A stretch of DNA of 51,239 bases from a bacterium. Its GTDB lineage: Bacteria; Patescibacteriota; Saccharimonadia; Saccharimonadales; UBA4665. Positions 4,170-24,703 of this stretch are shown in pieces; position 1 is the stretch's first letter; every line of letters starts with the position of its first letter. The stretch covers positions 1 to 51,239 of the forward strand of contig JAJZNU010000013.1 of assembly GCA_021811625.1 (NCBI GenBank), in the 5' to 3' direction. The position numbers were made by a program, and so were the translations under genes. The notes under the pieces are model-generated. The model did no database searches. It was not told the origin of the DNA and worked only from the letters and a program-made list of their open reading frames with translations.

Positions 4170-4829
4170 ATGACTACTCGTCTACCGGTACCGGGTTCAG
4201 ACGATGGTACCTGGGGAGATATACTCAACAGCTTTCTAGAGGTATCGCATAATAGCGATGGAACTTTAGCGGCTAATACGGTGGGCTATTCTCAACTACA
4301 AAGCGGCACCATAGCCAATGCCGGTGGAGTAACGTCAGTAAATGGAGTTACTCCTAGCAGCGGAGCGGTTGTTCTGGATGCCCAAGTTTTGGGGTCTGGA
4401 ACGCCGGCAGCGTCAACATTTCTTAATGGAAATCTGAAGTGGTCTGTTCCTCAAGTCGCATATGCGCAATCTTCCCTGCCGGTTGCGGTGGCCGCTACAG
4501 GGGCTAACATTAACCTGATAGAAGTGAGTTTAGCCGCGGGTGTATGGTTAATCTATAGTTCTGTCGCAATCAACAACTCCAATAACGGCGCCAGTGCCTA
4601 TGTGTGGATTGGTCCGACCTCTAATTCAGATGCCAGCGCTTATCAGGAAACTTACCTAAATATTGCCGGTTACACCGGAGCATCAAATGTCCTGTTCAGT
4701 AACTCATACATCGTCACTCTCCCTTCCGCTGTGACTGTATATTTGGGTTGGAATGGACCAAGCTCCTTGACGGCTCAGCCGGGTATAAATTCCACAAGTC
4801 TAGTCGCGGTGCAATTAGCGGGTAACTGA
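4170..4829 (+). CDS. Phage-tail-fibre-like surface protein
   Basis: This protein has 219 residues and lacks an obvious signal peptide. The N-terminus TRLPVPGSDDGTWGDILN resembles the N-terminal modules of phage tail fibre or tail-collar proteins. A low-complexity Ser/Thr/Gly/Ala linker follows. The C-terminal half (about 95-219) looks like a jelly-roll or C1q/TNF-like beta-sandwich, with VWLIYSSVAI, AYVWIG and VTVYLGWNG strands. Its TGA stop overlaps the ATG of the next gene by one base, so the two are probably translationally coupled. Function is inferred only as an adhesive or receptor-binding surface component; export without a signal peptide is unexplained. Confidence 0.65.
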   Translation: MTTRLPVPGSDDGTWGDILNSFLEVSHNSDGTLAANTVGYSQLQSGTIANAGGVTSVNGVTPSSGAVVLDAQVLGSGTPAASTFLNGNLKWSVPQVAYAQSSLPVAVAATGANINLIEVSLAAGVWLIYSSVAINNSNNGASAYVWIGPTSNSDASAYQETYLNIAGYTGASNVLFSNSYIVTLPSAVTVYLGWNGPSSLTAQPGINSTSLVAVQLAGN

Positions 4830-7800
4830 TGAAGTGCCTTAGACGAATTTTTCACGGATCCACCTCCTTGACTCTTAATATAAAATTCTCTCGTTGCTCA
4901 GAGTTAAAGCGCATTTTGTTAGGCATGACGACGCCTATTGTGTTGATGGGATTTATTGTTGGAGTTATAGGCTCATCTACGAATCTCATAAACAATATAC
5001 GGTTATCCAGTTTTCAACCACCTAGTGTTCCCGGGCAGAGTTACCAAATATGTAACGAACAAGCGCAATATCTTACTAGTCCATGGACATGGGACTCCCT
5101 GGCGTCAGGCAGCCAGAGTTATACGGTATCACAATATCAGGCTTTAGCGGGCTACGGTACCACATTGCCTTCATTGCCGACGTATATAGTCAACGAAGGG
5201 CCGTCCGCAACTGCCGCCACTATCTATGCACCCGGTCAGGCTGTGGCGCTATCGAGTTACCAGCATCCAAACAATGCGGAGCTATTCTTTTTTGAAGGAG
5301 GCTCATATACAAGTATTTACGCACAGACACTGTCAGGGGACGAGTTTATTGGGGGATCAGTCCCGGGGTATCCCGAACCGGTATTTAATGGTGCGAGCGC
5401 CATCAATAATAGCGAAGATCATTGGAATGCTACGCAGGGCTATGGAACCGTAGCTACCACCGTCACCAATAGTTCAACCATTACGGCTGATACTGGATTT
5501 AGTCCCGGATACTATAACAATAAGATTGTTTTTGCAGACGGCACAGTAGCTGCAATCAGCTCCATTTCAGGAACCACAATTACACTCGCTAGCCCGGTCA
5601 CCGAGAGCGCTGGAACGAATTTTTGGGTGTATGGAGATTGGATGCAAACAGGGTCCGCCAGTGCGTCAGCCGCGCAGGGAGCGACGACTTTTTCGGTAAC
5701 TCCTAATAGCGGGGGACTGCTTTATTTGCCGGGGGCGTCGCTGAGCGTTGGTGCAACCTTCCCGGACGGCACACCAACTACGGAGACTGTTCAAATTGCA
5801 TCTGTTTCAGGATCAACCATAACAACAACTCAGCCGTTAGCGCAGCCAATCCCGACGAATGCACCAGTAACTATTGTCGCCTCATCGGGCGAAGTAAGCC
5901 TTGAATATTTGTCGTTTCAGGGTGGCGGGGGAAATAACACAATAGTGGCCGGTAGTGACTGGACCATTGAACATAATTATTTTCATGATAATTATGCAGG
6001 AGGGGTGAACTATCAGACAACCAGCGCTGCGGGTCAAGCCATAATGAACGCCAATGATTCTACCGTTGAGTATAATTGTTTTCAAAGACTAGGCGAATAT
6101 GCTTTCAATGGCGGCGGGATAAGTTCATCATTTGACTATAACCAGGTTGACCAGACTCCCTACCAACCGGACTTATCCGGCAATGGTCAGTCGGGCTGCG
6201 GCAAATGGTGGGGGAGCTTCAATAACGATGTTAAAGATAACTCGTTTTCCAATGAACGGTACTCTGTCTGCCTTTGGTTTGATAACGGCAATGCGGGGCA
6301 GTTAGTAGAAGGAAATTATTTTTACAATATTGATGGGACGGCTGTTAGTAATGAGACTGGTTGGAATTCCGAATATCTGGATAATCTTTTCGAGGATGTC
6401 GGTATGGCAATATCGGAGAATGATTCCGGCGGGTGGAACATTCCTAATAGCCGTTTCAATGACCAGATATTAATTCAGGGCAATACCTTTTTCAACGCTC
6501 AACAGGCCGTTAATATATGGGGAGCAAGCGGTAGAAGTTGTTTGAATTCCGGTGAGGCTATTGGGAATGGTGAAAGTGCGCCGTATTGTTCGGGAGGGTT
6601 TCCCAATATGCAAGCCGATATCCAATACTTTTCGCATGTCCATGACTCTACCACCGGAGGGTACGGTACGGTAGTAGAAAATGAATCATGCACTTCTGCT
6701 TCCCCATGCTCAACCGTAACCCTGTCGGGCGCCATATCTCCCGAGGACTGGATAGGCTTTGATGGTGCGGGGCCTAACACCTGTTCGTCGGCTACCCCTT
6801 GCGGTACGGATGTCATAAGTCCGGTTGCAACATCTACTGCCAACACGACAGACGTTTCCACGTTCACAGCGGGTAGCCCGGGAACCGTTACTGTTAACTC
6901 AACAACCGGATTCCCCTCATCAGGACAGCTTGCCGTGAACACCAGTCAGGGCAGCGTATATGAATCGACTGGTGCCGTTTTGTCCTATACCGGTACAACG
7001 GCCACGACTTTTACGGGAGTCGTACTTGTTCAGGGAACAGGAACACTGAGCGGCGGAATACTAGCCGTTCAGCCTTATCATGCAACTGCAGTAAGCTGTC
7101 CGGGTGGGAACTGTACAAACAATACGGTGGTTACCGTGTCTCCCGCCATTACTTCAAACGTAACCGCTGGTACAACGGTCTACGGAACCGGCACATGCCA
7201 GTACTACGATACCGCGAATGCCACAGCTAGCTCGCCGCTGGCACCGAACTCAATTGCGTATATTGACGGGTGTATGTGGGAAGATCGTAATATATCGGTC
7301 CAATCTAATACTTTTTACGTAAATCCTGGATTGTTTGATACTGTTCCCCTGCCGGAGAACGATGGTAGCAACTGGAGTTGCACGGTCGGGTCGTCAGGGA
7401 ATTGTGGAGAGAACGCCATGGGTTATCAATATCCTGGGAGTAATGCCGAACCGTATAACAATATTTCATTTGCTAATGCGATGATGTCCAATAGCTCTTT
7501 TTCAGCGCCTTATAACAATCTTAATGCATCCGGCAGCCCGTTAGTCGGCGGAAGCACAGGGATATCGGCCAACCCGGAGACTCCTTACAACGACCAGTGG
7601 TCAAATAACACTTACCTTGGTCCCTGGACGTTCCAGGCCTATACTCAAGCCGCAGCATGCCAGCTTAATTGGGCAAGTAATGCTCTGGAATGGGTTGGGG
7701 GTACTAGCGGGAACGCTTGTTCTGGTTTGACGCCAACCCAATGGGAAACATACTGGGGTCAAGATACAGGGTCAACCTATCAACCAATAGTTGTTAGCTT

Positions 7801-8221
7801 ATCAGGCTTAAGCACAGGCCAGGAAATTTACGGTCCGAATGTAAATCTGGAAGCGTACGAATATAGCGCCGCTGGAGCCATAAACTCAACATTTTTACTA
7901 AATGGTGTGAGCATCGGTAATCTTTCTGCAGCTCCATATGCCTTTAATCTTAATACTCTGAGTTATTTGGACGGTACTTACACCATTAAAATAACCGGTA
8001 CTGACAGTAACAATAATACCGATTTTGATACTACTCAGGTCTACATCAGCAACGGTGACTTTAATGGTGATGGGCATGTCAATCTATCCGATCTAGCTAT
8101 ACTAGCTGCTCATTGGGGACAAGCAGACTCTAACTACTCAGACGGGAACATAACCGGACAATCTACCATTAACCTATCCGATCTTGCTGTACTGGCGGCT
8201 AATTGGGGGTGGGTGGAGTAA
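4829..8221 (+). CDS. Large secreted beta-helix protein with C-terminal dockerin
   Basis: The 1130-residue protein has a hydrophobic N-terminal segment near residues 30-50 (GMTTPIVLMGFIVGVIG), acting as signal or anchor. A central region (about 340-650) has repeated N-x-F/Y and E-Y/H-N turns (for example WTIEHNYFHDN, STVEYNCFQR, QLVEGNYFYN) typical of a right-handed parallel beta-helix. Ser/Thr-rich beta modules follow. A bacterial Ig-like domain (about 985-1072) precedes a type-I-like dockerin at about 1076-1130. The first dockerin repeat has an intact Ca2+ loop (D-F-N-G-D-G-H-V-N-L-S-D); the second (D-G-N-I-T-G-Q...NLSD) is degenerate. The family suggests polysaccharide binding or cleavage, or adhesion. 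No cohesin partner is visible in the window. Confidence 0.8.
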   Translation: MKCLRRIFHGSTSLTLNIKFSRCSELKRILLGMTTPIVLMGFIVGVIGSSTNLINNIRLSSFQPPSVPGQSYQICNEQAQYLTSPWTWDSLASGSQSYTVSQYQALAGYGTTLPSLPTYIVNEGPSATAATIYAPGQAVALSSYQHPNNAELFFFEGGSYTSIYAQTLSGDEFIGGSVPGYPEPVFNGASAINNSEDHWNATQGYGTVATTVTNSSTITADTGFSPGYYNNKIVFADGTVAAISSISGTTITLASPVTESAGTNFWVYGDWMQTGSASASAAQGATTFSVTPNSGGLLYLPGASLSVGATFPDGTPTTETVQIASVSGSTITTTQPLAQPIPTNAPVTIVASSGEVSLEYLSFQGGGGNNTIVAGSDWTIEHNYFHDNYAGGVNYQTTSAAGQAIMNANDSTVEYNCFQRLGEYAFNGGGISSSFDYNQVDQTPYQPDLSGNGQSGCGKWWGSFNNDVKDNSFSNERYSVCLWFDNGNAGQLVEGNYFYNIDGTAVSNETGWNSEYLDNLFEDVGMAISENDSGGWNIPNSRFNDQILIQGNTFFNAQQAVNIWGASGRSCLNSGEAIGNGESAPYCSGGFPNMQADIQYFSHVHDSTTGGYGTVVENESCTSASPCSTVTLSGAISPEDWIGFDGAGPNTCSSATPCGTDVISPVATSTANTTDVSTFTAGSPGTVTVNSTTGFPSSGQLAVNTSQGSVYESTGAVLSYTGTTATTFTGVVLVQGTGTLSGGILAVQPYHATAVSCPGGNCTNNTVVTVSPAITSNVTAGTTVYGTGTCQYYDTANATASSPLAPNSIAYIDGCMWEDRNISVQSNTFYVNPGLFDTVPLPENDGSNWSCTVGSSGNCGENAMGYQYPGSNAEPYNNISFANAMMSNSSFSAPYNNLNASGSPLVGGSTGISANPETPYNDQWSNNTYLGPWTFQAYTQAAACQLNWASNALEWVGGTSGNACSGLTPTQWETYWGQDTGSTYQPIVVSLSGLSTGQEIYGPNVNLEAYEYSAAGAINSTFLLNGVSIGNLSAAPYAFNLNTLSYLDGTYTIKITGTDSNNNTDFDTTQVYISNGDFNGDGHVNLSDLAILAAHWGQADSNYSDGNITGQSTINLSDLAVLAANWGWVE

Positions 8222-9767: not shown

Positions 9768-10904
9768 ATGCCTAATATTTATCTGGATTACGCCGCGGCT
9801 ACACCTCTCGATAAACGTGTTTTGGCGGCCATGACCCCTTATTTAACGGATAATTTCTATAACCCTTCGGGCATAACCCGAGAATCCGACGGCGTCAGAA
9901 AGGCCATAGATGCAACCCGGTCATCGGTGGCTAATATCTTGGGCGTCAAATCGGCCGAGATCATATTCACCGCTGGTGGGACCGAGGCGAATAATCTGGC
10001 TATCCGCGGGGTGATGGAGCAGTACCCCGGCTCTAATCTAATAATAAGTGCAATCGAGCACGAATCGGTGATTGCCCCGGCATTTCTATACGACTCTAAA
10101 TTAGCTCCGGTAAGCAGCGAAGGAATAATCGATATCGACCGGCTGGTTGAGCTGGTTGATAACAAAACCGTTCTGGTAAGCGTTATTTATGCCAGCAATG
10201 AAGTTGGGTCAATCCAGCCGCTCAAAGAGTTATCTGATCGCTTGGAAGCTGTCCGCTCCCGCCGCGAGCGTCAAGGTAACAAACTGCCGCTTTATCTGCA
10301 CAGTGATGCCGCTCAGGCCGGAAACTATCTAAGTCTGCACGCCGATAAACTCGGGGTGGATATGCTGAGCTTAAATGGCGGCAAAATATACGGGCCGAAG
10401 CAAAGCGGGGTCTTGTATGTCAAATCCAGCGTTCGCCTAAAACCGCTAATTTTAGGCGGCGGACAGGAGTCGGCACTGCGCTCGGGCACCGAAAATGTCG
10501 CCGGCATTATCGGGTTTGGTGAGGCTTTATCTATTGCCCAGAACAACAGGCTAAGTGAATCGGCTCGACTTAAATCTCTTCAAAGTTTATTCTTTGACCT
10601 TATGAGGGAGCAACTGCCAGCGGCAACTATTAACGGCTCACTGAAACACCGTCTACCGAGCAATGTTCATCTGACGATACCCGGCATAGATAATGAGCGA
10701 ACAGTGATGGAGCTAGATGAAAAGGGTATTATCGCGGCGTCAGGCTCGGCCTGCAGCGCGGCTAGTCAAGAACCGTCTCATGTTCTGATGGCTATGGGCC
10801 TAAGCAAGGCGGAAATTCGCTCTTCGCTGCGTTTTAGCATGGGCCGATCCACTAGTGCCGCCTCGATTCGAGCCGTAGTCAGCGCATTACTCTCCTTGGT
10901 CTAG
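9768..10904 (+). CDS. Cysteine desulfurase (NifS/IscS family)
   Basis: This PLP enzyme of 378 residues moves sulfur from L-cysteine to an active-site cysteine persulfide. The N-terminus IYLDYAAATPLD is typical. The cofactor region includes TAGGTEANNLAI, the HSDAAQ motif and the PLP-lysine segment SLNGGKIYGPK. The catalytic Cys329 lies in ASGSACSAASQEPSH. C-terminal arginine RSSLRFSMG matches the substrate-binding site. It has no neighbouring iscU or sufU. The tRNA 2-thiolation enzyme MnmA is encoded 14 kb downstream, so tRNA thiouridine is a likely sulfur sink. Confidence 0.94.
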   Translation: MPNIYLDYAAATPLDKRVLAAMTPYLTDNFYNPSGITRESDGVRKAIDATRSSVANILGVKSAEIIFTAGGTEANNLAIRGVMEQYPGSNLIISAIEHESVIAPAFLYDSKLAPVSSEGIIDIDRLVELVDNKTVLVSVIYASNEVGSIQPLKELSDRLEAVRSRRERQGNKLPLYLHSDAAQAGNYLSLHADKLGVDMLSLNGGKIYGPKQSGVLYVKSSVRLKPLILGGGQESALRSGTENVAGIIGFGEALSIAQNNRLSESARLKSLQSLFFDLMREQLPAATINGSLKHRLPSNVHLTIPGIDNERTVMELDEKGIIAASGSACSAASQEPSHVLMAMGLSKAEIRSSLRFSMGRSTSAASIRAVVSALLSLV

Positions 10905-10935: not shown

Positions 10936-11763
10936 ATGAAACGTAACGTAAAAAGCGGCTCATACCTGTTGCTGCTCAGTGTGGTATTTACTTTAACCCC
11001 GGTTACCTTCATCGCTGCCCAGGCTCTGGTTATGAGCTACACTACGACCTCAACACTGCAGGTGGGCACGATAGTGCAGATGCAGAATTCTAAAAAGAAC
11101 ATTGTCACAGCCCAAACCCAAACCAATGAGACAAAAATGTTCGGGGTTGTGATCAGCCCCAACGACAGTCCGGTGTCTCTTTCTACATCGACTTCCTCGT
11201 CGCAGGCCTATGTTGCAAGCAGCGGCAATTATAGCGTTCTGGTGGATAATCAGAATGGCCCTATAGACACCGGGGACTATATAACCGCTTCTTCGCTGAA
11301 CGGCTTTGGGATGAAAGCTTCTTCCAGCGACTCGACAACACTCGGTAGGGCGTTAACTTCTTTCAATGGATCATCTGACAGTATCGGCCAGACAACCCTT
11401 AAAGAGTCCGGCGGTAGAACCGTTAATGTTTCTCTGGGCCGGATAATTGTCGATATCTCTATTGGACCCAACCCGGTGCAGCAGAATATTCTTGTACCCG
11501 GATTTCTCAAAAGCGTTGCTCAAAGCGTCTCGGCTAAGCCGGTGAGCGCCATTCGTATTTATTCCGGACTGTTGGTGTTGCTTGTCGCTATGATCGTTGC
11601 CGGCGGGATGCTTTATGCCGGCATCCGCAGCAGTGTTATAGCTATTGGTAGAAACCCTCTTTCCCAGAGGTCTATTACCCGTAGCCTGATCCAAATAACT
11701 TTTACCAGCCTGATAGTTTTCATTATCGGGCTGATTGCGGTATATTTACTACTGAAGTTATAG
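10936..11763 (+). CDS. Extracytoplasmic beta-domain fused to a subunit-c-like hairpin without carboxylate
   Basis: The protein has 275 residues. A signal-type hydrophobic segment (about 10-30) leads to a roughly 170-residue Ser/Thr-rich beta domain. Within it GDYITASSLNGFGMKA and LGRAL (113-140) resemble beta-domains of tail-fibre-like proteins. Two transmembrane helices follow (about 207-230 and 251-273). The loop between them, S-S-V-I-A-I-G-R239-N240-P241, matches the R-Q/N-P polar loop of F-type subunit c, which contacts gamma/epsilon. Helix 1 ends AGGMLYAG, partly like the glycine-rich c helix. The conserved ion-binding Asp/Glu normally lies 18 residues after the loop proline; that position is Leu259, and neither helix has any acidic residue. 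Topology is consistent: ectodomain outside, polar loop inside. It is first in the ATPase operon, in the subunit-c position. Confidence 0.75.
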   Translation: MKRNVKSGSYLLLLSVVFTLTPVTFIAAQALVMSYTTTSTLQVGTIVQMQNSKKNIVTAQTQTNETKMFGVVISPNDSPVSLSTSTSSSQAYVASSGNYSVLVDNQNGPIDTGDYITASSLNGFGMKASSSDSTTLGRALTSFNGSSDSIGQTTLKESGGRTVNVSLGRIIVDISIGPNPVQQNILVPGFLKSVAQSVSAKPVSAIRIYSGLLVLLVAMIVAGGMLYAGIRSSVIAIGRNPLSQRSITRSLIQITFTSLIVFIIGLIAVYLLLKL

Positions 11764-11804
11764 CGGTTTTTTACAGGAAAAAATATGCAAGCGGTGGGTA
11801 AAAA

Positions 11805-12425
11805 ATGAATACATGGTGGCTGGCAGTTATAGTACTGGGAGTAGTGTCGGTTGGTATCGGTTTCGTGTGGCTGATTGCCAAGGTTTCGAGTCTGCAGGGC
11901 GGATCGCCGGACCGTCCGGGGGACATTGACTCCGCTACCAGAAAAGACATCGAGCACATCTTTAACGATGAGTTCCGGAGCGAGCTAAAAAACCGCGGCC
12001 GGCTGCACTTCGAAAAGATTATCGGTGAAAACGCCATGTTCCTGCAGCAGGATCTAAGGCTAACAACCAGCCAGCTCAACGACTATATGAAGGAGGAGAT
12101 TACCGCCAAGCTTCAAGAAGAGTTCGCCAAGTATGAACAGTCGATCATGGATGCCAAACAGCTGGCCATCGATTCGATCACCAAAACCAACGCTGCTGTC
12201 GAGGAACAGCGTCGCACGTTGAGTACCCAGCTGGAAAAAGAGATAGCTGTTGAGAAAGACAGGATTATTAAAGAGTTCGAAGAAAATACCGCGGCTATTA
12301 TCAATCACTACCTGCTGGAGGCTATCGGCGATCAGATAGACCTCAGCGATCAACTCGAATACATCTTAAGCGGTATTGAAGCTAATAAGCAGGCTATCGT
12401 AGAGGATATTAAAAGTGGCTCCTAA
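11805..12425 (+). CDS. F0 subunit b-like stator protein
   Basis: The 206-residue protein has one N-terminal transmembrane helix (about 5-27, WLAVIVLGVVSVGIGFVWLI). A short polar linker and a long charged, mostly helical region follow (about 45-205), with a coiled-coil stretch at TKTNAAVEEQRRTLSTQLEK. This is the architecture of subunit b, the peripheral stalk that holds F1 to the membrane. It is longer than the usual roughly 160 residues and I see no close sequence match to standard AtpF, so the call rests on architecture and position. It begins 41 nt after the c-like gene and overlaps the delta-like gene by 11 nt. Confidence 0.75.
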   Translation: MNTWWLAVIVLGVVSVGIGFVWLIAKVSSLQGGSPDRPGDIDSATRKDIEHIFNDEFRSELKNRGRLHFEKIIGENAMFLQQDLRLTTSQLNDYMKEEITAKLQEEFAKYEQSIMDAKQLAIDSITKTNAAVEEQRRTLSTQLEKEIAVEKDRIIKEFEENTAAIINHYLLEAIGDQIDLSDQLEYILSGIEANKQAIVEDIKSGS

Positions 12426-12930
12426 AGATCCAGGTGGAAGAGTACTCGAGCTGCCGGTTCAGGTTATATCACCGGCCGATGTCCACCGTCTCAGCCGTGA
12501 ACTCGAGTCCTTAGAGGATTTTCTGGCTCAGAGTGCTATCAGGGATCCCGGTAGCCGAATGAAATTACCCTCTTCCACCAAGCTGCTTGATGAGTTAGCG
12601 GCTGCTAACTCTTTTAATTTTCTGCGTGACGGGGATCGTCAGAAGGCGCGCACTTTTTTGGAATCACTCAGTAAATATGCCCCGGTGGTTCATATCAGTT
12701 TTGCTAGCGATCCCTCGGCTAATTTTATGTCTAAATTGACGACCCGGCTGAGAGCGACCATCCATCCGCAGCTGCTTATCACGGTCGGTTTGGAGCCTAA
12801 CATTGCCGCCGGATGTATACTTCGCACTCCCAACCGTCAATTCGATCTCAGTCTTAGAAGAGCGCTTGTCGGTCACGAGAATTCCCTGATCAACTTACTA
12901 AAAGCACAAGCAGGAGTAAATGCAGCGTGA
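12415..12930 (+). CDS. F1 subunit delta-like stalk protein
   Basis: The protein has 171 residues. The C-terminal segment [23 protein letters not shown] matches the conserved D-P-x-L-x-G-G-x-x-x-R-x-G-x-x-x-x-D-x-S-x-R pattern of subunit delta/OSCP. The N-terminal half does not obviously match the six-helix bundle that caps alpha, so the F1 attachment may be altered. It sits between b and alpha, the normal atpH position. It overlaps b by 11 nt and alpha by 4 nt (GTGA), indicating translational coupling. Confidence 0.75.
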
Positions 12931-14377
12931 GCGATAATCGTCACTTTGATCAACTAGTGGAAAGCGGTCGTCCGGTTGGTGAAGTTATCGGGGTGGATAA
13001 GTTTCTGGTCAAGTTAAAAGGGCTACAACCGGTTAACACTCATGCTCTAGTTATGTTCGAAGACGGTTCAAAAGGATACGTCCATCAGGTATTGCCAGAT
13101 CACACCTTAGTATTTCACCTCGGTAAAACACCACTCAAACTAGGTACCACAGCCACTTTGCAGCATGATAAACTAGTTACAAAAGTCGGCAAAGGCTTTG
13201 TCGGAAGGGTGGTTTCGGTCAGCGGCGAACCATTGGACGGTAAGGGGCCGATTGCCGCCGAAGCCGCTTGGCCGGTTTTTGCTCAGGCACCAATGTTATA
13301 TAAACGGGAATTACTCGACACCCAACTGGAAACCGGCATAGGTATTGTCGACAGCCTGTTCCCCCTGGTCAAGGGCCAGAGGATAGCCATACTCGGTGAC
13401 AATAAATCGGGTAAAACCACCCTAGCCACCCAAGCGGCAATTAATTCCAAAAACAGCGATGTTGTCGTGGTCTATGTGCTGATTGCCAAACGCCGCAGTG
13501 ATCTCGACACTCTCGTTTCCCAACTAAAAGCTAACGAAGCGCTGGATAAGTCCATTGTCGTAGTATCCACTATGTCCGAATCGCTAGTAATGAGCTTTCT
13601 GGCACCGTATGTTGGTTGTGCTATGGCTGAGTATCTCTGGCAGATTGCCAACCAGGACGTTATGGTTGTGTACGATGATCTCACCTCTCACGCCCACACT
13701 TACCGCGAAATGTCACTGCTTTCCGGGGTAAGTCCGGGTCGCGACTCCTATCCAGGGGACATGTTCTACATCCATTCTTCGCTATTGGAGCGAGCCGGTA
13801 AACTGGCCGCTAACCACAAGACCCTTACCGCTCTGCCCCTAGGACTGACTCCCGGAGGAGACATCACCGGGTATTTACCCACCAATCTGATGTCCATTAC
13901 CGACGGACAATGGATACTGGATATGAAAACCTTTCGCGATACCGTTCGGCCGGCCCTCAATGTCGCGTTGAGCGTCACCAGGGTTGGCGGGCGCGGACAA
14001 AACGATCGGCAAAAGGTTCAGAGCGCCCAGACCTTGGCGGCGCTGGCGAAATACACTACGGCCGAGCAGTTCTCTCACTTTGGGACCGAGCTTGGACCCA
14101 ACCTGCAGATTGATCTGGCTCGAGGACGAGATTTGTACGACCTTTTCACTCAAAAACCGGGCGAAAAATATAACCTAATGACTCAACAACTTATGTTGGA
14201 GGTAGTGCTGGGACTAAGTCCGCAAGAGGAGGTAGATATCTCGCGCCTAAAGACTCAGGCTCCCAAAGCGGCGAGTACTGTGAATGAAAGTAACTTTTCT
14301 ACCGTAGTGGCTCAGTTGAAGGCCGGGAGTTTGATGTCAAAGGCGGCACCGCCTGTCGCTGCCGGAAAGGCTCAGCC

Positions 14378-14381
<4 letters not shown>
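12927..14381 (+). CDS. atpA: F1 ATPase subunit alpha-like
   Basis: The protein has 484 residues (typical alpha about 500-515) and a GTG start overlapping the delta stop as GTGA, with AGGAG upstream at 12912. The P-loop is G157-D-N-K-S-G-K-T, where ordinary alpha has [17 protein letters not shown] (270-278) and the HSSLLERAG segment are conserved. The arginine finger lies in S-V-T-R352-V-G-G, so alpha can complete the beta catalytic site. The N-terminal beta-barrel is present ([16 protein letters not shown]). The divergence from housekeeping alpha fits a specialised F1-like motor. It overlaps the gamma gene by ATGA. Confidence 0.93.
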
Positions 14382-16840
<2,459 letters not shown>

Positions 16841-16844
<4 letters not shown>

Positions 16845-17875
16845 TCCAGGACAATGTAGTCGAATACGAGCACTGAGCTGCTGGGAACCGGCGATGACGA
16901 AGTAACGTCGATACTGAAGCCGGTAGTTGTACGGCTGACATAGTATGAAAGACCGGCGGCTGCAGAACTGGCCGGGGTGATAATTACGTCGGGAGTGGCG
17001 TTGAACTTGGCGTTGAAGGTGACATTAACTAGTGCCCCCGAGGAGGCAGAATTGCCGGTGTTTATGGTGACTACCCCACCGGTATCCGAGCCGCTGATTG
17101 ATACGGTGCCACCATTGCCGATAGCACTGCCGGCTGATGCTACAGGTGAAGCCCCGCCGGGTTGGATATGATGATTGAGAATCAGGTCGCTATTGAGCGT
17201 CAAGCTCTGAACCGTCAGCTGATTAACAGAGACGGCTCCGGCGAAACTGGCCGACCCGGCGATATTGAGATTCTTGCCGACCGTCAACTGTCCCTGGATC
17301 ACCGTATCGCCTGATACGATCAGCTGCGAGGTGGATATTTGATTAAATGAACTGCTGCCGCTGACGGTGATACCCGGCAAATTCAGGCTGCTCCCGACTT
17401 TGATAGCCCCGGCTACATCCAAATTCTGCTTAATAAGCACCTGTCCGCCAAAAACCGCCGAAGCGCCAACCGTCAAGATTTGACTTGAGTCCCCGACATT
17501 TAGATTATTATTGGCTAGTTGCTCGAGCTGGCTCTGGGTCAAATTCTGAGTTGAGATCCCGGCGTTATTATTCTTGTGGCTCATGACCACCGCCATGACT
17601 ATCGACGTTGCCGCCATGAGGACCAGAGCGATGAACAACAATATATATTTGCTGGGATGAGGCAGATGGAACTGCCGCTTTTTTTGCGGCGGCGGCGGGG
17701 GACTTGCCGGAGGTGGAGTCGGCTGGAGCAAAGGAGCAAGCGGTGTCCCGACGGTCGGCGAAACCGGGTCTGATACGGGAGGCGCGGGTGCACTATGGTC
17801 TTCGATGATCGTACTAGGGGTTTCCAGTGACGTATCAGCATTGTCCTGTAGCTGTCTCTGATCTGATGGATACAT
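16841..17875 (-). CDS. Bitopic membrane protein with fibre-like extracellular region
   Basis: The protein has 344 residues. Residues 1-75 are cytoplasmic and rich in Pro (TPPPASPPPPPQKKR). One transmembrane helix follows (about 76-98). Outside lies a short coil and a series of roughly 15-residue beta repeats (ITVSGSSSF, LIVSGDTVIQGQLTVGKNLN, AGSASFAGAVSVNQL), as in trimeric fibre or adhesin stalks. A globular beta-domain at about 250-344 contains VNVTFNAKFNATPDVIITP. No cell-wall sorting signal is seen. It is convergent with the ATPase operon and divergent from the secreted-protein cluster. A partner role for the ATPase ectodomain is possible but unproven. Confidence 0.75.
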
Positions 17876-18025
17876 AGATATCGAATAAATCCTTAGTGCT
17901 TAAGAGGACCGTATCGCCCACCGCATATTTACTTTGCTATGATACCTGAATAAACCATAAACGTAAACGGACTATAGCTTAAGGGGAATTGTCAATTTGC
18001 CAAGCGTCGTGGCACAATAAGATAT

Positions 18026-18796
18026 ATGAAAATCCGCCGTAAACTTATATGGACTCTAACCAGCGGCACCATCATTCTGACTATGTTTGCTTCCACCGCC
18101 AATGCCGCTCAATACTCATCACCCAATTATCAGCTGAATGAGGTGTTTGTCGGTAACGGCGGGGAACTTAACTTGACCTCACCCAACTACTCGGCCAGCG
18201 GTTCGGTGGGATCGTTAGGGGTGGGCAACAGTTCCAGCCCGAGCTATCAGGCTCAAGCGGGCTTCAATACATTCCGCTCTCCGTATATTGCCCTTATTGT
18301 TAATAACAGCAGCACCAATCTAGGAGCACTAAGTAGTGGCGCTACCTCTACCTCTACCGCTAGTTTTTCGGTAAAAGCTTACTTGGCTAACGGGTACATT
18401 GTCCAAACCGACAGTCCGGCTCCGTCCAGCGGAAGCCACATCCTTACCCCTCTGTCTTCTCCGGCGGCCGCGACACCTGGTCTGGAGCAGTTCGGAATGA
18501 ATCTGGTGGCCGACACCAATCCCAATACCTTGATTGGCGTAAGTGCCAATCCCGTCCAGCAACCGGATAATACATTTAGCTACGGGACGGTCAACCCGAG
18601 CACCTGCGGGTCGGTAACTCCCGGGTACGATACCGCCAATGAATATAAATACAATAACGGCGATGTTATTGCGGCATCTTGTCTAAGTTCGGGCGAGACC
18701 GACTACACCATTTCATATATATTCGACATCAGCAACAAAACCCCGGCCGGCGCCTATCACTTCAATGATGTTCTGGTCGCCACCGCCACCTATTAA
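18026..18796 (+). CDS. Secreted surface protein, paralogue 1 of 4
   Basis: The 256-residue protein has a clear signal peptide (KLIWTLTSGTIILTMFASTANA, cleavage after about residue 27). Two repeats follow with SPNYQLNE, SPNYSASG and SPSYQAQAG. The C-terminal module contains TPGLEQFGMNLVADT and ends NKTPAGAYHFNDVLVATATY. The same Q-F-G and P-A-G-x-Y elements occur in the next three genes. The C-terminal P-x-G-x-Y-x-x-x-L pattern recalls WxL-type domains of Gram-positive surface proteins, without a strict WxL motif. It is first in a gene series with 8-nt spacing to the next. Confidence 0.75.
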   Translation: MKIRRKLIWTLTSGTIILTMFASTANAAQYSSPNYQLNEVFVGNGGELNLTSPNYSASGSVGSLGVGNSSSPSYQAQAGFNTFRSPYIALIVNNSSTNLGALSSGATSTSTASFSVKAYLANGYIVQTDSPAPSSGSHILTPLSSPAAATPGLEQFGMNLVADTNPNTLIGVSANPVQQPDNTFSYGTVNPSTCGSVTPGYDTANEYKYNNGDVIAASCLSSGETDYTISYIFDISNKTPAGAYHFNDVLVATATY

Positions 18797-18804
18797 AAAG
18801 CTCT

Positions 18805-19974
18805 ATGACGTCACTATTTAAAAAACTCTTAAATATAACGCTACTCGCCGTATTAGCTTTCGGTGTTCTATCCTATCTGGATAGTGGCGTGGTCCGCGCC
18901 TATTCCAGAACCTTGACCGATAGCATCACGATGAACAATTCGACGTCTTCGGCCAGCGGCGTTGATTATCAGGTAAGCTTCGATGCTGCCACGACTGCGA
19001 CACTTCAGGGAATTGTCATCGATTTTTGCTCTAACAGTCCGGTCATCGGTGATGTCTGCGATACTCCGGCCGGTTTCTCGGTCGGGACCCCGGCGGTCTC
19101 TTACACCAGCGGTATCACCAGCAGTTGGTCGGCGACCAGCGCTGACGCTGATCGCACCGTGATCCTCACCTATGCCACCGGCACCGCTATTACAGCCGGC
19201 CAAAATATCAGCTTCGACATAACTACCATAACCAACCCTTCAACGGCCAACTCAACGTTTTATGCCCGAATCCTAACCTATACTTCATCGACAGAAGCAA
19301 GCGGATACAGCGTCACATCCTCATCGTCAAATATTAACACTCCGACCGACGCCGGCGGAGTAGCACTTTCAACCGGCAACAACATAAGTGTCAGCTTTAT
19401 TATCCCCGAGACTCTTTCGTTTTGTGTCTACACCTCGAGTAGCTGCGGGACGGGCGGTAGCAGTATAGTGCTCGGCGACAATCATGGGATACTTTCAAGT
19501 AGCGGGCCGTTCGTTGACAAAACTGCCAAATACGACATTGCCACCAATGCCGTACACGGTGCCGCTATAACGCTGCACGGAGCGACGCTAACGGCCGGTA
19601 GTAATAGCATTGCCGCGTTATCGACCCCTACAGCCAGTGTTCCGGGCACATCACAGTTCGGTATCTGTACCTACACAACTAGCGGTTCCAGCCTCGTTCC
19701 CTTCGGAGATTACGACGGCAACGCCGGCAGTGGTGGTACGGCTTGCCAGAATGTTGCGCAGAGTTCGGGGAATAGTGCGCCGGGCAGCGGGGGCGGCGTG
19801 CTATGGTACTTCAACCAGGCTAACACCACTTCTACTTACGGTGATGAAATTGCGTCTATGACTCCGGACACTACTAACACCGGAGTCATAGCCTTAATGG
19901 CCAATATATCGACGTCGCAGCAGGCCGGTATATATTCAACGTCGTTAATTCTGGTAGCGACCGGTACTTACTGA
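18805..19974 (+). CDS. Secreted surface protein, paralogue 2 of 4
   Basis: The protein has 389 residues. A signal peptide occupies about 1-32 (LLAVLAFGVLSYLDSGVVRA). The N-terminal beta-domain contains IVIDFCSNSPVIGDVCDTP, with two cysteines that recur in paralogue 3 and partly in paralogue 4 and probably form a disulfide. The C-terminal module has NAVHGAAITLHGATLTAGSN, VPGTSQFGICTY and ends SQQAGIYSTSLILVATGTY. Structural surface role is inferred. It starts 8 nt after paralogue 1. Confidence 0.75.
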   Translation: MTSLFKKLLNITLLAVLAFGVLSYLDSGVVRAYSRTLTDSITMNNSTSSASGVDYQVSFDAATTATLQGIVIDFCSNSPVIGDVCDTPAGFSVGTPAVSYTSGITSSWSATSADADRTVILTYATGTAITAGQNISFDITTITNPSTANSTFYARILTYTSSTEASGYSVTSSSSNINTPTDAGGVALSTGNNISVSFIIPETLSFCVYTSSSCGTGGSSIVLGDNHGILSSSGPFVDKTAKYDIATNAVHGAAITLHGATLTAGSNSIAALSTPTASVPGTSQFGICTYTTSGSSLVPFGDYDGNAGSGGTACQNVAQSSGNSAPGSGGGVLWYFNQANTTSTYGDEIASMTPDTTNTGVIALMANISTSQQAGIYSTSLILVATGTY

Positions 19975-20330
19975 CCCTTAGGGATATCTAGTAGCAAAAC
20001 GTCAGTCCAATTGTAACCACGTTACCATTCCCGGATAGCATCGCTTTCTCTCACCGGGTCTTAGGCAAAATCCTAATATTTATCGTCGAGTTTTCTGCTG
20101 CTTTTTAAGCTGTCTGGCGCGGAAGAGCTAGGAATAAAAAGATAGATTGCGTGATCCGAGCCGTAAGCTAACTCACCGATCAACCTCTCTTTACCCTGTC
20201 GCTGGCCGTTTCCAGGACCAAAAAAATAAGACTGTGGATAACTCGCTTGAATAGGTATATTCCTTATGATAACCTGAACATGAATAGCATGTTTTTGAGT
20301 TGAGTATAGAAAAAATAGAAAAGGTAAAAA
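19975..20330. other. 356-bp intergenic region with no convincing gene
   Basis: A short CCCTTAGGG palindrome follows the upstream stop, and a weak hairpin TTAGG-CAAAAT-CCTAA lies near 20061-20077. Neither is a strong terminator. A 90-codon minus-strand frame covers part of the region but has no ribosome binding site. The end of the region holds the probable promoter and GGT-containing leader of the next surface gene. Confidence 0.4.
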
Positions 20331-21533
20331 ATGAAAATACGACAAAAACTGACAAGACTACCGTTCGTAGCTATATCATTAATGTTTGTTCCGCTGGGTG
20401 TTATTGGTGGAATCAGCCAGGTTGCTCATGCCTTTCCGTCGTACGGAGAGCTTCAGTCCCGGTCTGTGGAAATGAGTACATCGGTCGCCGGAGCCAGCGC
20501 GACATATCATGTCAGCTTTACGGCCGCCACTACGGCTTCGATAGGCGGTATCGTGGTGGACTTTTGTTCGAACGACCCGATTATGGGCGATACCTGTACG
20601 GCACCGACCGGCCTAAGCATCGGTACTCCGACCGTCAGTGGTGCCAGTAGCACCCTAACTGGAACATGGACGGCCGGGAAAGTTGCCTCCAGTGTATCGA
20701 CGCTTAGTTACACAACCACTACGCCCGTTGCCCTAACCGGCGGCTCTTCGCAAGTATATTTCGACATTACCTCGATGACCAATCCCTCGACCGCTTCCCA
20801 GCTGTACGCCAGATTGTATACCTTCGATACGGCGACTGATGCCGGCAACTACTCTGCTACCGGTACCGATACCGGTTTGATAGATGCCGGCGGTACGGCG
20901 CTATACACCACTAACGCCCTGCATGTTACTTCTAAGGTTCAGGAAGAGTTGACTTTTTGTATCGACACCAACAGCGCCAGCAACTGTGGCGGCGCCAGCG
21001 GTAACGCCGTCAGCCTGGGCGATAGCCACGGCGTGTTGTCGAGTAATGGTCCATTTGTCGATAAAACCACTCAGTATATCGTTCAGACCAATGCCGGCTC
21101 CGGAGCTGTTATTCGCCTCGAAGGCAACACTCTAACCTCCGGGAGTAATTCCATAGCGGCCGCTTGCACGGGAACCTGCCCGGGGGCTACGCCGACTACC
21201 AGCGTGCCAGGTACCTCTCAGTTTGGGTTGTGTACCTATGACTCCGCTGGTGCCGCGACCATCACGGCTGCCAGCACCTACAACGGCGGAGCGGCTGGCT
21301 TATGCCAGGGTACGACCCAGACTTCCGGTACGGGCACAACCGGCGGTGATAATGGGGCTTCATTCGGTCTAAACACGGCTCTGACTAGCGGAACTTACGG
21401 TGATACTCTGGCAAGTGTAGTTGCGGGCGCTCAGGCTACCGGCACTCTAGTCTTTCTTGGCAATATATCAGTAACTCAACCAGCCGGCATATATTCTACT
21501 ACCCTGACGTTTATCGCCACCGGCACTTATTAA
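20331..21533 (+). CDS. Secreted surface protein, paralogue 3 of 4
   Basis: The protein has 400 residues. A signal peptide ends at about residue 35 (VIGGISQVAHA). The first domain repeats the paralogue 2 arrangement: IVVDFCSNDPIMGDTCTAP, then FDITSMTNPSTASQLYARL, where paralogue 2 has FDITTITNPSTANSTFYAR. The second module has NAGSGAVIRLEGNTLTSGSN, VPGTSQFGLCTY and the terminal QPAGIYSTTLTFIATGTY. The close similarity to paralogue 2 indicates local duplication. Expected on the cell surface or secreted. It starts a new gene group after a 356-bp gap. Confidence 0.78.
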   Translation: MKIRQKLTRLPFVAISLMFVPLGVIGGISQVAHAFPSYGELQSRSVEMSTSVAGASATYHVSFTAATTASIGGIVVDFCSNDPIMGDTCTAPTGLSIGTPTVSGASSTLTGTWTAGKVASSVSTLSYTTTTPVALTGGSSQVYFDITSMTNPSTASQLYARLYTFDTATDAGNYSATGTDTGLIDAGGTALYTTNALHVTSKVQEELTFCIDTNSASNCGGASGNAVSLGDSHGVLSSNGPFVDKTTQYIVQTNAGSGAVIRLEGNTLTSGSNSIAAACTGTCPGATPTTSVPGTSQFGLCTYDSAGAATITAASTYNGGAAGLCQGTTQTSGTGTTGGDNGASFGLNTALTSGTYGDTLASVVAGAQATGTLVFLGNISVTQPAGIYSTTLTFIATGTY

Positions 21534-21552
21534 AGGGTTTACCAGGGAGCTT

Positions 21553-22623
21553 GTGGTGCGCCCCCGGCAGACGCGGCTAAAGAAGCTTGTCTGGCCGGTA
21601 GCTGTGGCAGTCGCTCTGATGATGATTGGCGGCTTTCATCCAACCGCCAAAGCCGTTTCGCAGCATTTAAGCAATCGTTTCGACGAGCTTACTAATGCGT
21701 CCGCCGGTGCTACCACTACGCACCTGATTGGTTTTGGTATCAGCAGCACATCAACGCCGCTGGGGTCCGTAAGGTTCCAATTTTGTTCGAACGATCCACT
21801 CCCAGATCTCCCTTGTAACGCGCCTACCGGTTTCAATGCCTCGAGTGCGGTTTTATCGGCTCAGAGCGGCAACACCGGCTTTTCGATCTTGAGCGAATCA
21901 GCCAATGAGGTCGTCCTATCGCGCTCGCCGGCCAGCAATCCGACTACTGCCGCCAATACCTACCAGCTGAACAACGTCATAAATCCGAGTGCTATCGGTG
22001 TTCTCTACCTTCGCTTGTATATCTATCAGTCTACCGACGGCAGCGGGACCGAAACCGAAAACGGCGGCGTGGCGTTAAGTATTAACCAGGGACTGAATGT
22101 TAATGCCGAGGTTCCACCGTATTTAGGCTTTTGCAGCGGTGTAACAATCACCGGTCGCAACTGTGCCTCGGCCACCGGCTATTATTTGAACTTTGGGGAA
22201 TTCAGCACCTCCCACGCCTCGGTAGCCACTTCTCAGTTCAGTGTCGGCACTAACGCCGGCAACGGCTACAACGTCACAGTCAATGGTACTACCCTGACTT
22301 CCGGCAACAACGTTATCCCGTCACTGTCTAGTCCCAGTGCTTCAACCCCGGGGGTTAGTCAGTTTGGACTCAATCTGGCGGCCAATACTCTTCCCGCCAT
22401 AGGCAGCGACCCGACCGGTCCCCCCGACGGCAGGGGGCAGGTGGTTGCCGCTTATAGTTCACCCAACCGGTTCGCCTTCAATAGCGGCGACGTTATTGTC
22501 GTATCGTCAACCACCAGCAACTACCAGGTTTTCACGGTCTCTTATCTGGCCAATATTAGCAGCTCACAACCCCCCGGAGTCTATGCCTCTACTCTGACAT
22601 ATATCTGTCTAGCTAATTTTTAA
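21553..22623 (+). CDS. Secreted surface protein, paralogue 4 of 4
   Basis: The 356-residue protein starts at one of two adjacent GTG codons (21553 or 21556), behind GGGAG. A signal peptide covers about 10-34. It shares the cysteine-containing VRFQFCSNDPLPDLPCNAP segment and the module NAGNGYNVTVNGTTLTSGNN, TPGVSQFGLNLAANT, ending SQPPGVYASTLTYICLANF. An extra cysteine pair (FCSGVTITGRNC) is present. It lies 19 nt after paralogue 3 and 13 nt before the DUF916-like gene, so these three are probably one transcription unit. Confidence 0.76.
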   Translation: MVRPRQTRLKKLVWPVAVAVALMMIGGFHPTAKAVSQHLSNRFDELTNASAGATTTHLIGFGISSTSTPLGSVRFQFCSNDPLPDLPCNAPTGFNASSAVLSAQSGNTGFSILSESANEVVLSRSPASNPTTAANTYQLNNVINPSAIGVLYLRLYIYQSTDGSGTETENGGVALSINQGLNVNAEVPPYLGFCSGVTITGRNCASATGYYLNFGEFSTSHASVATSQFSVGTNAGNGYNVTVNGTTLTSGNNVIPSLSSPSASTPGVSQFGLNLAANTLPAIGSDPTGPPDGRGQVVAAYSSPNRFAFNSGDVIVVSSTTSNYQVFTVSYLANISSSQPPGVYASTLTYICLANF

Positions 22624-22636
22624 CCGGCATGATAAT

Positions 22637-23650
22637 ATGAGAATAAGTATGTTCAGGGGTAACTTCACTACTGTAATTTCCCGCGTTCTAGTCGTTGTGC
22701 TGCTCTTCGGCTCGGTTTTTGTAGCCACTAGCGGGCAGGCCGTAGCAGCCGTCGGTCCAGCCAACGGCTTCTTAGTCTCGCCGGTAGAGGAAGAGCTCAC
22801 CATTAACAAGGGTACCAGCCAAACCGTTGACATCGCCGTGCAAAATCCTACTAACTCGACGGTTGTAGCCGAAACGGTCATTAACGATTTTGTAGCTAGC
22901 TCACAAGAAAATGGGGTACCGAGGATTCTGCTCAACGGTGACAATTCTCCCGCCAACAACTTTAAATCCTTGGTAAAACCGATTCCCAACACCACGCTTT
23001 CACCACAACAGAAACAATATATACCCGTAACCATCTCAGTACCTGCTAATGCCAGCTCCGGAGGTTATTACGGAGTGGTTCGCTTTATTCCTGTCTTGAA
23101 TAATAATTCCGCGGCGAACGTCGGCTTAACGGCCAGCGTCGGAAGTCTGTTCCTGATAACCGTGCCCGGCAACCTTATTCAGAAGCTGGATCTCGTGCAG
23201 TTATCGGCGGCCAATAATAACGGAAACGCCGATAGTTTCTTTTTGTCCGGCGCCGTGTCTTCGATGGTTCGTCTTCATAACTCTGGCAACATTCACGTTG
23301 AACCATTCGGTAGTGTGGTAGTAAAAAACATGTTTGGCTCACAGGTGGCGAGTTATCAGTTTAACAATACCGACCCTCGAGCCAGTATCTTGCCGGACAG
23401 CACCCGCAAGTTTGTCAACGCTCTTCCAAGTCATTTCTGGTTCGGTCACTACACCATTGACGCCAATCTTGCTTACGTCCAAGGCAGCGGCAAAATAATT
23501 ACCGCCAGCGCCGGCTTTTGGTATATGCCATGGTGGTCGTTGATAGTTCTGGTGGTAATCCTGGCGGTTATCGTCTATTTTGTCCGTCGTCTGGTAATCA
23601 GAAGGCGACGCCATCATCTTCAGGGTGGCAAGAGCATACCCGTCCGTTGA
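22637..23650 (+). CDS. DUF916/WxL-interacting-like membrane-anchored protein
   Basis: The 337-residue protein has a signal peptide (about 12-38). The Ig-like domain begins GFLVSPVEEELTINKGTSQT, followed by VDIAVQNPTNSTVVAETVI and VPANASSGGYYGVVRF, the pattern of the peptidoglycan-binding/WxLIP domain (DUF916) of Gram-positive Csc clusters. A second beta-domain follows. The C-terminus has one transmembrane helix (about 297-318) and a basic tail (RRLVIRRRRHH). Known WxLIP proteins anchor WxL proteins at the cell wall. Its place after four paralogous secreted proteins suggests the same arrangement here. Confidence 0.75.
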   Translation: MRISMFRGNFTTVISRVLVVVLLFGSVFVATSGQAVAAVGPANGFLVSPVEEELTINKGTSQTVDIAVQNPTNSTVVAETVINDFVASSQENGVPRILLNGDNSPANNFKSLVKPIPNTTLSPQQKQYIPVTISVPANASSGGYYGVVRFIPVLNNNSAANVGLTASVGSLFLITVPGNLIQKLDLVQLSAANNNGNADSFFLSGAVSSMVRLHNSGNIHVEPFGSVVVKNMFGSQVASYQFNNTDPRASILPDSTRKFVNALPSHFWFGHYTIDANLAYVQGSGKIITASAGFWYMPWWSLIVLVVILAVIVYFVRRLVIRRRRHHLQGGKSIPVR

Positions 23651-23794
23651 TTAGCCTGATGGAAAAATAACGGCCGTTCCCGGGTTAACATCGCTACGAT
23701 CTTCGATAGGAATAGCGCCAGTGATATACTTAGATCATCCGCTTATGGCAAGCGTCTTAATGACTAACCAGCGAAGCTATCAAACGATAAAACC

Positions 23795-24703
23795 ATGATA
23801 AAAACGCTCTCGTATTTCATAACAAAAAAAAGTGTCTTAATGGGCACATTGTTAGGAGTGGTGGGGCTATCTGTTACTTTGACCCCCGGAGTAAGCCATG
23901 CTACAACCATGACCCAATCGGGAGCACTGGGGTTATCGGGTACTATCAGTGTGCCACCGCCGACACAGGCAGCGACCATCACTATCCCCAACAACGGACA
24001 AACCCTGTCCGGCGGGCCAATCACGGTATCGGGCACTTGTCCCTCTGGTCTGCTGGTGGAGATTTTTTCCAATAATGTTTTCGCCGGGTCACAGCAATGC
24101 AGCGGCGGTACCTTTTCGGTAAAAACCAGTTTATTCAGCGGCAGTAATCAACTAGAGGCCAGCGTTTATGATGCTCTAGGGCAATCCGGTCCGGCTTCGA
24201 ATATGCCGACAGTCCAATATAGTAGCGCTCTGTTCTCTCCCTTAGGGCCGCTCTTGACGCTGTCGAGCAGCTACGCCACTCGTGGTGCCAATCCCGGTGA
24301 GATACTCTCGTGGCCGATCGTTATAAGCGGGGGAACCGGGCCGTACTCTCTGAGTATTTACTGGGGGGATGGCACCCAACCACAAAGCCAGGCAGCCCCA
24401 TTCTCGGGCAATGTTACCATAGCCCATACCTATAAGATGTCAGGTTCATACAATATAACTATTAAGGCGACTGACAAAAACGGTGAAACGGCATTTTTAC
24501 AACTGGTTGGTGTCGCCAACGGACCGATAACGCCGGCAGGCAGCACCTCCTCTAGTCCATCTACGTCCAACACCTCAAGCGTGATCTGGTGGCCGGCCGC
24601 GGTCATCCTGCCTCTCCTATTTGTCGCATTCTGGCTTGGCGGAGCCCATAAATTGACCTCGCTGAAAAAGAGGCTGGACAGCAATAGCGACAGGCTTCAA
24701 TAA
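23795..24703 (+). CDS. Secreted PKD-domain protein with C-terminal membrane anchor
   Basis: The 302-residue protein has a signal peptide (about 8-33). A first beta-domain (about 50-135) has ITIPNNGQTLSGGPITVSG, like an Ig or carbohydrate-binding fold. A PKD-like domain follows (about 150-238), with IYWGDGTQP, the family's W-G-D-G-x-x, and YKMSGSYNITIKATD. A Ser/Thr linker precedes one transmembrane helix (about 266-286) and a short cytoplasmic tail. The layout resembles that of the DUF916-like neighbour, and a surface-scaffold role is likely. It ends the surface-protein island. Confidence 0.72.
   Translation: MIKTLSYFITKKSVLMGTLLGVVGLSVTLTPGVSHATTMTQSGALGLSGTISVPPPTQAATITIPNNGQTLSGGPITVSGTCPSGLLVEIFSNNVFAGSQQCSGGTFSVKTSLFSGSNQLEASVYDALGQSGPASNMPTVQYSSALFSPLGPLLTLSSSYATRGANPGEILSWPIVISGGTGPYSLSIYWGDGTQPQSQAAPFSGNVTIAHTYKMSGSYNITIKATDKNGETAFLQLVGVANGPITPAGSTSSSPSTSNTSSVIWWPAAVILPLLFVAFWLGGAHKLTSLKKRLDSNSDRLQ

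Follow-up and report, generated by a model that had tools for sequence, protein, structure and literature searches.

The window, the whole 51,239-nucleotide stretch of Patescibacteria DNA analysed here, carries at positions 10,936 to 24,703 a locus that probably encodes an F1-type ATPase in which the former ion turbine now serves to couple the enzyme mechanically to a surface pilus (Table 1). In the best reading of this locus its products form an ATP-hydrolysing rotary motor that does not pump ions, for which we infer a ring, its rotation and a contact between an outer crown and the pilus. Because the rotor has lost its ion-moving part, has gained an outer domain and is encoded beside pilus genes, the data suggest that a second ATP-synthase-like machine present in many ultra-small bacteria serves as a surface motor powered by ATP and not for making energy.

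Table 1 Genes of the fusion-F1 operon and the adjoining surface-fibre and pilus genes (positions in the window)
Feature	Position	Strand	Description or basis
c-like fusion protein, 275 aa	10936..11763	+	signal peptide, beta domain, linker helix, c-type hairpin without carboxylate
b-like peripheral stalk	11805..12425	+	N-terminal TM helix, coiled coil, conserved C-terminal motif
delta/OSCP-like subunit	12415..12930	+	profile vs PDB: OSCP/delta chains, best E 1e-7
F1 alpha-like subunit, Arg finger present	12927..14381	+	PF00006 E=9e-66
F1 gamma-like subunit, full length	14378..15238	+	PF00231 E=9e-30, residues 4-279
F1 beta-like subunit, P-loop and catalytic Glu	15235..16542	+	PF00006 E=1e-63
epsilon-like subunit, N-terminal beta-sandwich only	16539..16844	+	PF02823 E=8e-13
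single-pass membrane protein, extracellular tail-fibre/bactofilin-like beta-helix	16841..17875	-	profile vs PDB
PamT, CPR-type pilus protein	18026..18796	+	NF058579, 268.5 bits vs cut-off 240
Pam pilin subunit	18805..19974	+	NF058581, 75 bits vs cut-off 55
Pam pilin subunit	20331..21533	+	NF058581, 57.3 bits vs cut-off 55
Pam pilin subunit	21553..22623	+	NF058581, 168.4 bits vs cut-off 55
WxL-interacting-protein-like membrane protein	22637..23650	+	PF06030, 28.8 bits vs cut-off 27.3
PamR, RbmA-like pilus system protein	23795..24703	+	NF058578, 351.9 bits vs cut-off 300

The fusion gene starts with an ATG codon 31 bases downstream of a cysteine desulfurase gene. An AlphaFold2 model of its product, computed with 51 family members as input (mean pLDDT 90.3), shows strands at residues 32-178, a linker helix at 189-199 and two helices at 205-239 and 241-274. 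The initial annotation, made from the sequence, had described a signal peptide and a beta domain ahead of the first helix. We indeed observed a hydrophobic segment at residues 7-34 that ends in an AxA-like site (signal peptide, residues ~1-30), followed by a strand region of about 150 residues, and a hydrophobic segment near the N-terminus recurs in 55 of 58 fusion homologs. The N-terminus of subunit c lies outside; together with the signal peptide, this places the beta domain outside as well, in agreement with the extracytoplasmic position that had been proposed for it. Directly upstream, the desulfurase (9768-10904) is of the NifS/IscS type and has relatives near the fusion operon at four further fetched loci; farther upstream lies a secreted protein of 1130 residues (4829-8221) that contains a bacterial Ig domain and ends in a dockerin-like region, these matches being weak and below cut-off.

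The same annotation had read the two helices as a subunit-c-like hairpin with a polar loop R239-N240-P241, a leucine at the position P+18 where c subunits have Asp or Glu, and no acidic residue in either helix, and each of these readings proved correct: the loop is present as G238-R-N-P241, Leu259 occupies P+18, and both helices (205-239 and 241-274) are free of Asp and Glu. The missing carboxylate is moreover a property of the family and not of the window's protein alone, since position 259 is uncharged in all 58 homologs and none of them has Asp or Glu at positions 254-273, the membrane part of helix 2. R239 and P241 are invariant in the same 58 sequences, and N240 is kept in 57. In ordinary enzymes, the polar loop of c docks the ring to gamma and epsilon; with the RNP loop kept and the acid lost, the part for docking to gamma and epsilon has thus been retained while the ion-binding part is gone.

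Descent of the fusion hairpin from subunit c is well supported. A hairpin profile built from 52 relatives and run against all PDB sequences returned 12 entries up to E 10, and all 12 were ATP synthase c subunits (or subunit 9) from bacteria, chloroplasts and mitochondria (best E 1.1e-4 and 1.2e-3); a profile search for subunit-c similarity had been set beforehand as a refuting test, and similarity was what it found. Consistent with this, hhalign aligned the hairpin profile with canonical Patescibacteria c at a probability of 96% (its E-value reflects one comparison only). In a six-frame search of 20 whole genomes, the profile gave seven strong matches, all of them fusion genes, and fifteen weaker ones (E 3e-9 to 7e-5) that are genes found independently by PF00137. 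In Foldseek, the modelled hairpin superposed on the Chloroflexus subunit c 9itt_I with a TM-score of 0.91 by target length and an rmsd of 1.1 Å, and a second AlphaFold model, of a relative with 26% identity, gave 0.88 and 1.2 Å against the same chain. The single fusion sequence gave no significant c match in Pfam, NCBIfam, PHROGs or PDB (a PDB c subunit appeared at E 0.26), was not recognised above cut-off by PF00137 (ATP-synt_C) and, used as a query against the genome contigs, matched nothing; the sole PF00137 match in the window's genome was the c gene on contig 8. Among the sequence searches, it was family profiles alone that brought out the kinship with c.

The initial annotation had also joined the hairpin, were it to form a ring, to a cytoplasmic gamma shaft, and a complete F1 gene set does go with the fusion gene. 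The operon order is fusion-b-delta-alpha-gamma-beta-epsilon, with no subunit a; compared with the canonical atp operon, the order is the same, with a removed and c replaced. The b-like gene begins 41 bases past the fusion gene, and every later gene of the seven overlaps its predecessor. In 45 of 53 fetched fusion loci, alpha and beta genes share the stretch with the fusion and lie no more than 1.7 kb from it; the loci hold 35 strict fusion-b-delta-alpha runs and 27 runs with all seven genes, and in 8 fetched loci the fusion occurs without F1 genes close by. No F1 gene lies within several kb of the fusion genes of L033 (6597-7478), L035 (6017-6886), L064 (6680-7564), L065 (6562-7392) and L066 (1622-2386).

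The b-like protein matches PF00430 at E=0.02, below cut-off, and subunit b in the PDB at a profile E of 0.012, among other coiled coils, so that it is a putative subunit b, assigned mainly from its place in the operon, a TM helix at the N-terminus and the coiled coil that follows, besides these weak profile matches. A TM helix is missing from 6 of 43 b-like proteins (L048, L049, L050, L052, L073 and L081), and the peripheral stalk may lack a membrane anchor in these lineages. The catalytic residues of F1 are intact: the alpha Arg finger R376 is invariant in 44 of 44 complete copies, as are the beta P-loop K/T, E182 and R183. Epsilon measures 82-110 aa in fusion operons versus 135-152 aa in canonical copies and hence lacks the C-terminal helices, which in ordinary enzymes inhibit hydrolysis.

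In both the alpha and the beta tree, a branch with 100/100 support separates the fusion-operon copies from the canonical and E. coli sequences, which is consistent with a single origin of the fusion-operon alpha and beta genes on trees whose root is not fixed. The F1 subunits fall below the curated equivalog cut-offs (atpD 410 vs 463, atpA 366 vs 484, gamma 81 vs 194 and epsilon 41 vs 67 bits) and below those of the N-ATPase alt_F1F0 models (beta, 384 vs 752 bits). None of the mycoplasma models MSC_0618/0619/0622 and MMOB1660/1670 was matched over cut-off (MSC_0618, 357 vs 570 bits; MMOB1670, 322 vs 850 bits).

In a sample of 380 genomes drawn across the phylum Patescibacteria, a profile search found fusion proteins spanning the hairpin in at least 63 genomes, two of them as fragments. 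A scan of named genomes, with an alignment of closer family members as the query, gave 199 loci, and the 80 kept are nearly all from Candidatus Saccharibacteria assemblies, which makes this class the most probable source of the window. Two records labelled Chlamydiae and Chloroflexi (L118 and L186) carry close relatives of the fusion gene and are most likely misbinned or mislabelled. Subunit a (PF00119) was found by the fusion operon in none of 47 fusion-carrying genomes, being either in a canonical operon or absent. Thirty of the 47 have exactly one a, adjoining the sole canonical c, and one has a c-type match without a; the remaining 16, at 92-100% completeness, have neither, and in 14 of these 16, F1 genes stand beside the fusion on the fetched stretches. 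Twelve of 13 tested genomes of family f48 (e.g. L040, L041 and L075) carry the fusion and neither a nor canonical c, and this lineage seems to have abandoned the canonical ATP synthase. In the genome of the window (74% complete), the canonical operon lies on contig 8. Contig 12 of that genome carries a second, diverged fusion-F1 operon (L032, 1790-7737) with Pam pilins of its own 6.6-9 kb off.

Downstream of epsilon, the window encodes a membrane protein whose profile matched the phage tail fibre 9cuy (E 1e-7) and gp45 spikes (E 2e-4 to 9e-4) in the PDB, and homologs of which adjoin 14 other fusion operons. It is followed by the Pam pilus genes and, among them, by a WxL-interacting-like protein with a peptidoglycan-binding domain and a C-terminal TM segment, which likewise has homologs beside other fusion genes. 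The distance between the fusion and the Pam pilins is 6.4-8.3 kb at 13 Saccharimonadia loci, 1.3 kb at one more and 0.7 kb at five loci of another lineage, in which pilin-like genes and WxL-interacting-like relatives lie between the fusion and b, inside the operon. The co-occurrence of the fusion and Pam pilins scoring over cut-off is strong in Saccharimonadia (16/3/1/17, Fisher p 1.3e-6), is also seen when a single family is taken by itself (8/1/1/13, p 1.6e-4) and is weaker phylum-wide (29/34/74/243, p 5e-4), all three tests ignoring relatedness. The NCBIfam release 20 Pam models matched neither the fusion protein nor the F1 subunits, and the accessions neighbouring these models are unrelated families with no further Pam models. 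Adjacency and co-occurrence suggest that the fusion-F1 genes may be linked, physically or functionally, to the Pam pilus, and the pilus genes beside the operon, which the initial annotation had overlooked, likely point to the purpose of the fusion-F1 machine.

The fold of the beta domain matched phage capsid decoration proteins (8hdt, Foldseek E 4e-6; BB1, Sf11) and, in a viral library, DUF2190 and fibre barrels (E 2.5e-9), with moderate TM-scores of about 0.4-0.75 by target. On its own, the domain is also part of giant surface proteins, 1000-4700 residues in length; its profile gave no match in the giant proteins adjoining fusion genes, and the family profile matches giant proteins elsewhere in the phylum. 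In lineages other than the pilin-bearing ones, a divergent giant membrane fibre adjoins the fusion. These lineages have giant fibres and no strong Pam pilin matches, and the pilus is thus not the sole partner; a surface fibre is the theme common to the neighbourhoods of the fusion operon. An N-terminal MerR-like domain was found in three of the four giant fibres scanned, and an S74 chaperone domain in two. The proteins at L040 (10125-13998), L043 (769-6165) and L069 (3-3626) are giant single-pass membrane fibres with an N-terminal MerR-like HTH, the one at L043 also carrying an S74 chaperone and ending in a K1-lyase-like region; it is odd for a DNA-binding-like domain to be joined to a surface fibre.

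Taken together, we propose that the fusion hairpins form a c-like ring, for which the initial annotation had conjectured 8-15 copies, and that gamma and epsilon would dock to it via the conserved RNP loops. ATP hydrolysis would then turn gamma, epsilon and the ring against an alpha3-beta3 head held by b and delta, and no ions would be moved. The beta domains would make up an extracytoplasmic crown, turning or under torque, that may work on the Pam pilus or on other surface fibres by assembling, anchoring or rotating them. How the stator is held without subunit a is the weak step of this scheme, and its anchor is uncertain, given the b-like proteins without a TM helix. In its fullest form, in which F1 spins a c-like ring with an outer crown and so turns or drives a surface pilus, as an ATP-powered counterpart of the flagellar motor without ion flow that is widely distributed among Patescibacteria and in some lineages the sole F1 enzyme, we put the proposal forward only tentatively.

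It is conceivable, though unlikely, that the hairpins merely tether an F1-ATPase as a static anchor, the outer domain being fixed to the wall or surface layer, no torque being transmitted and the pilus genes being mere neighbours. The unclear stator anchor, with 6 of 43 b-like proteins lacking a TM helix, would fit such an arrangement, and a domain that shares its family with parts of giant surface proteins may simply bind the surface; however, a complete gamma, delta/OSCP, the RNP loop and all catalytic residues have been kept, which is beyond the needs of an anchor, and in one lineage pilin-like genes lie within the operon. We consider it rather unlikely that F1 powers the export or polymerisation of pilins through or around the ring, with the finished pilus not rotated. 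F1-related ATPases do power type III export, and pilins, a membrane WxL-interacting-like protein and a fibre protein are adjacent, but the pilins carry N-terminal signal sequences of their own, so that Sec export suffices, and the lumens of c-rings are normally plugged by lipid.

Persistent ion pumping, through a canonical or unrecognised subunit a or through a ring mixed with canonical c, is highly improbable: 30 of 47 genomes do have canonical a and c, but the operons contain no a, no acid occurs at positions 254-273 in 58 homologs, and 16 genomes are without a and c altogether. Capping of the canonical ring by the fusion protein, or its mixing into that ring, was likewise rejected as the main reading, some genomes having no canonical c. 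Least credible of all is that the likeness to c is convergence of a short hairpin in a decayed ATP synthase operon, for which the single-sequence E of 0.26 and the missing Pfam match might speak, since the family profile, the genome scans and two structure models all find c, and catalytic sites intact in 44 copies, together with long conservation, argue against decay.

For Patescibacteria that do not respire, the reason for retaining F-type ATP synthase genes is an open question (PMC11665869, PMC10633639). Some of these genes may not code for an ion-coupled enzyme, which would be part of the answer: 16 of the 47 fusion-carrying genomes have neither a nor canonical c. To annotate alpha and beta as 'ATP synthase' would in that case mislead models of their energy metabolism. 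If the crown of the proposed motor turns, torque generated by an ATPase in the cytoplasm would cross the membrane and reach an external fibre by a new route.

Compared with subunit c (PF00137), the fusion protein shares the two-helix hairpin, the RNP loop, the hairpin length, the superposition and the place before b; in contrast, it has no Asp/Glu at P+18 and no Gly-rich helix 1, and it adds a signal peptide and the extracytoplasmic domain. With phage capsid decoration proteins and fibre barrels (8hdt, 8pkh, DUF2190) it has the beta-domain fold in common, but here the domain sits in a bacterial membrane protein. The Pam pilus system of CPR bacteria (NF058578, NF058579, NF058581) is represented in the window by PamT, three pilins and PamR, all exceeding their cut-offs. 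By their Pam names, the pilus genes are already known to NCBI. The literature searched describes neither a fusion-F1 system nor the name Pam, and the source behind the name, which might itself cover the motor, lay outside that search; with that caveat, the fusion-F1 system is new among rotary ATPases, and its operon beside Pam pilus genes is new here. A c subunit without Glu/Asp has been reported in 20 F/N-ATPases, the 'non-catalytic' cases in ProAD (PMC11738941); unlike the fusion operon, these were counted with all core subunits including a, and no outer domain or pilus link was described for them (PMC11738941). The mycoplasma F1-like X0 ATPases, namely Type 2, the gliding motor of M. mobile, and Type 3 (PMC3369863, PMC11864180), resemble the fusion operon in being a second, non-canonical F1 set without ordinary F0 a and c. 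Their clusters contain other membrane proteins, with no reported similarity to a, b, c or delta (PMC3369863), whereas the fusion operon keeps c-, b- and delta-type subunits. Type 2 is tied to the surface motility of a small parasite (PMC3369863, PMC11864180), and we regard these mycoplasma enzymes, by analogy, as the closest working model for the machine proposed here.
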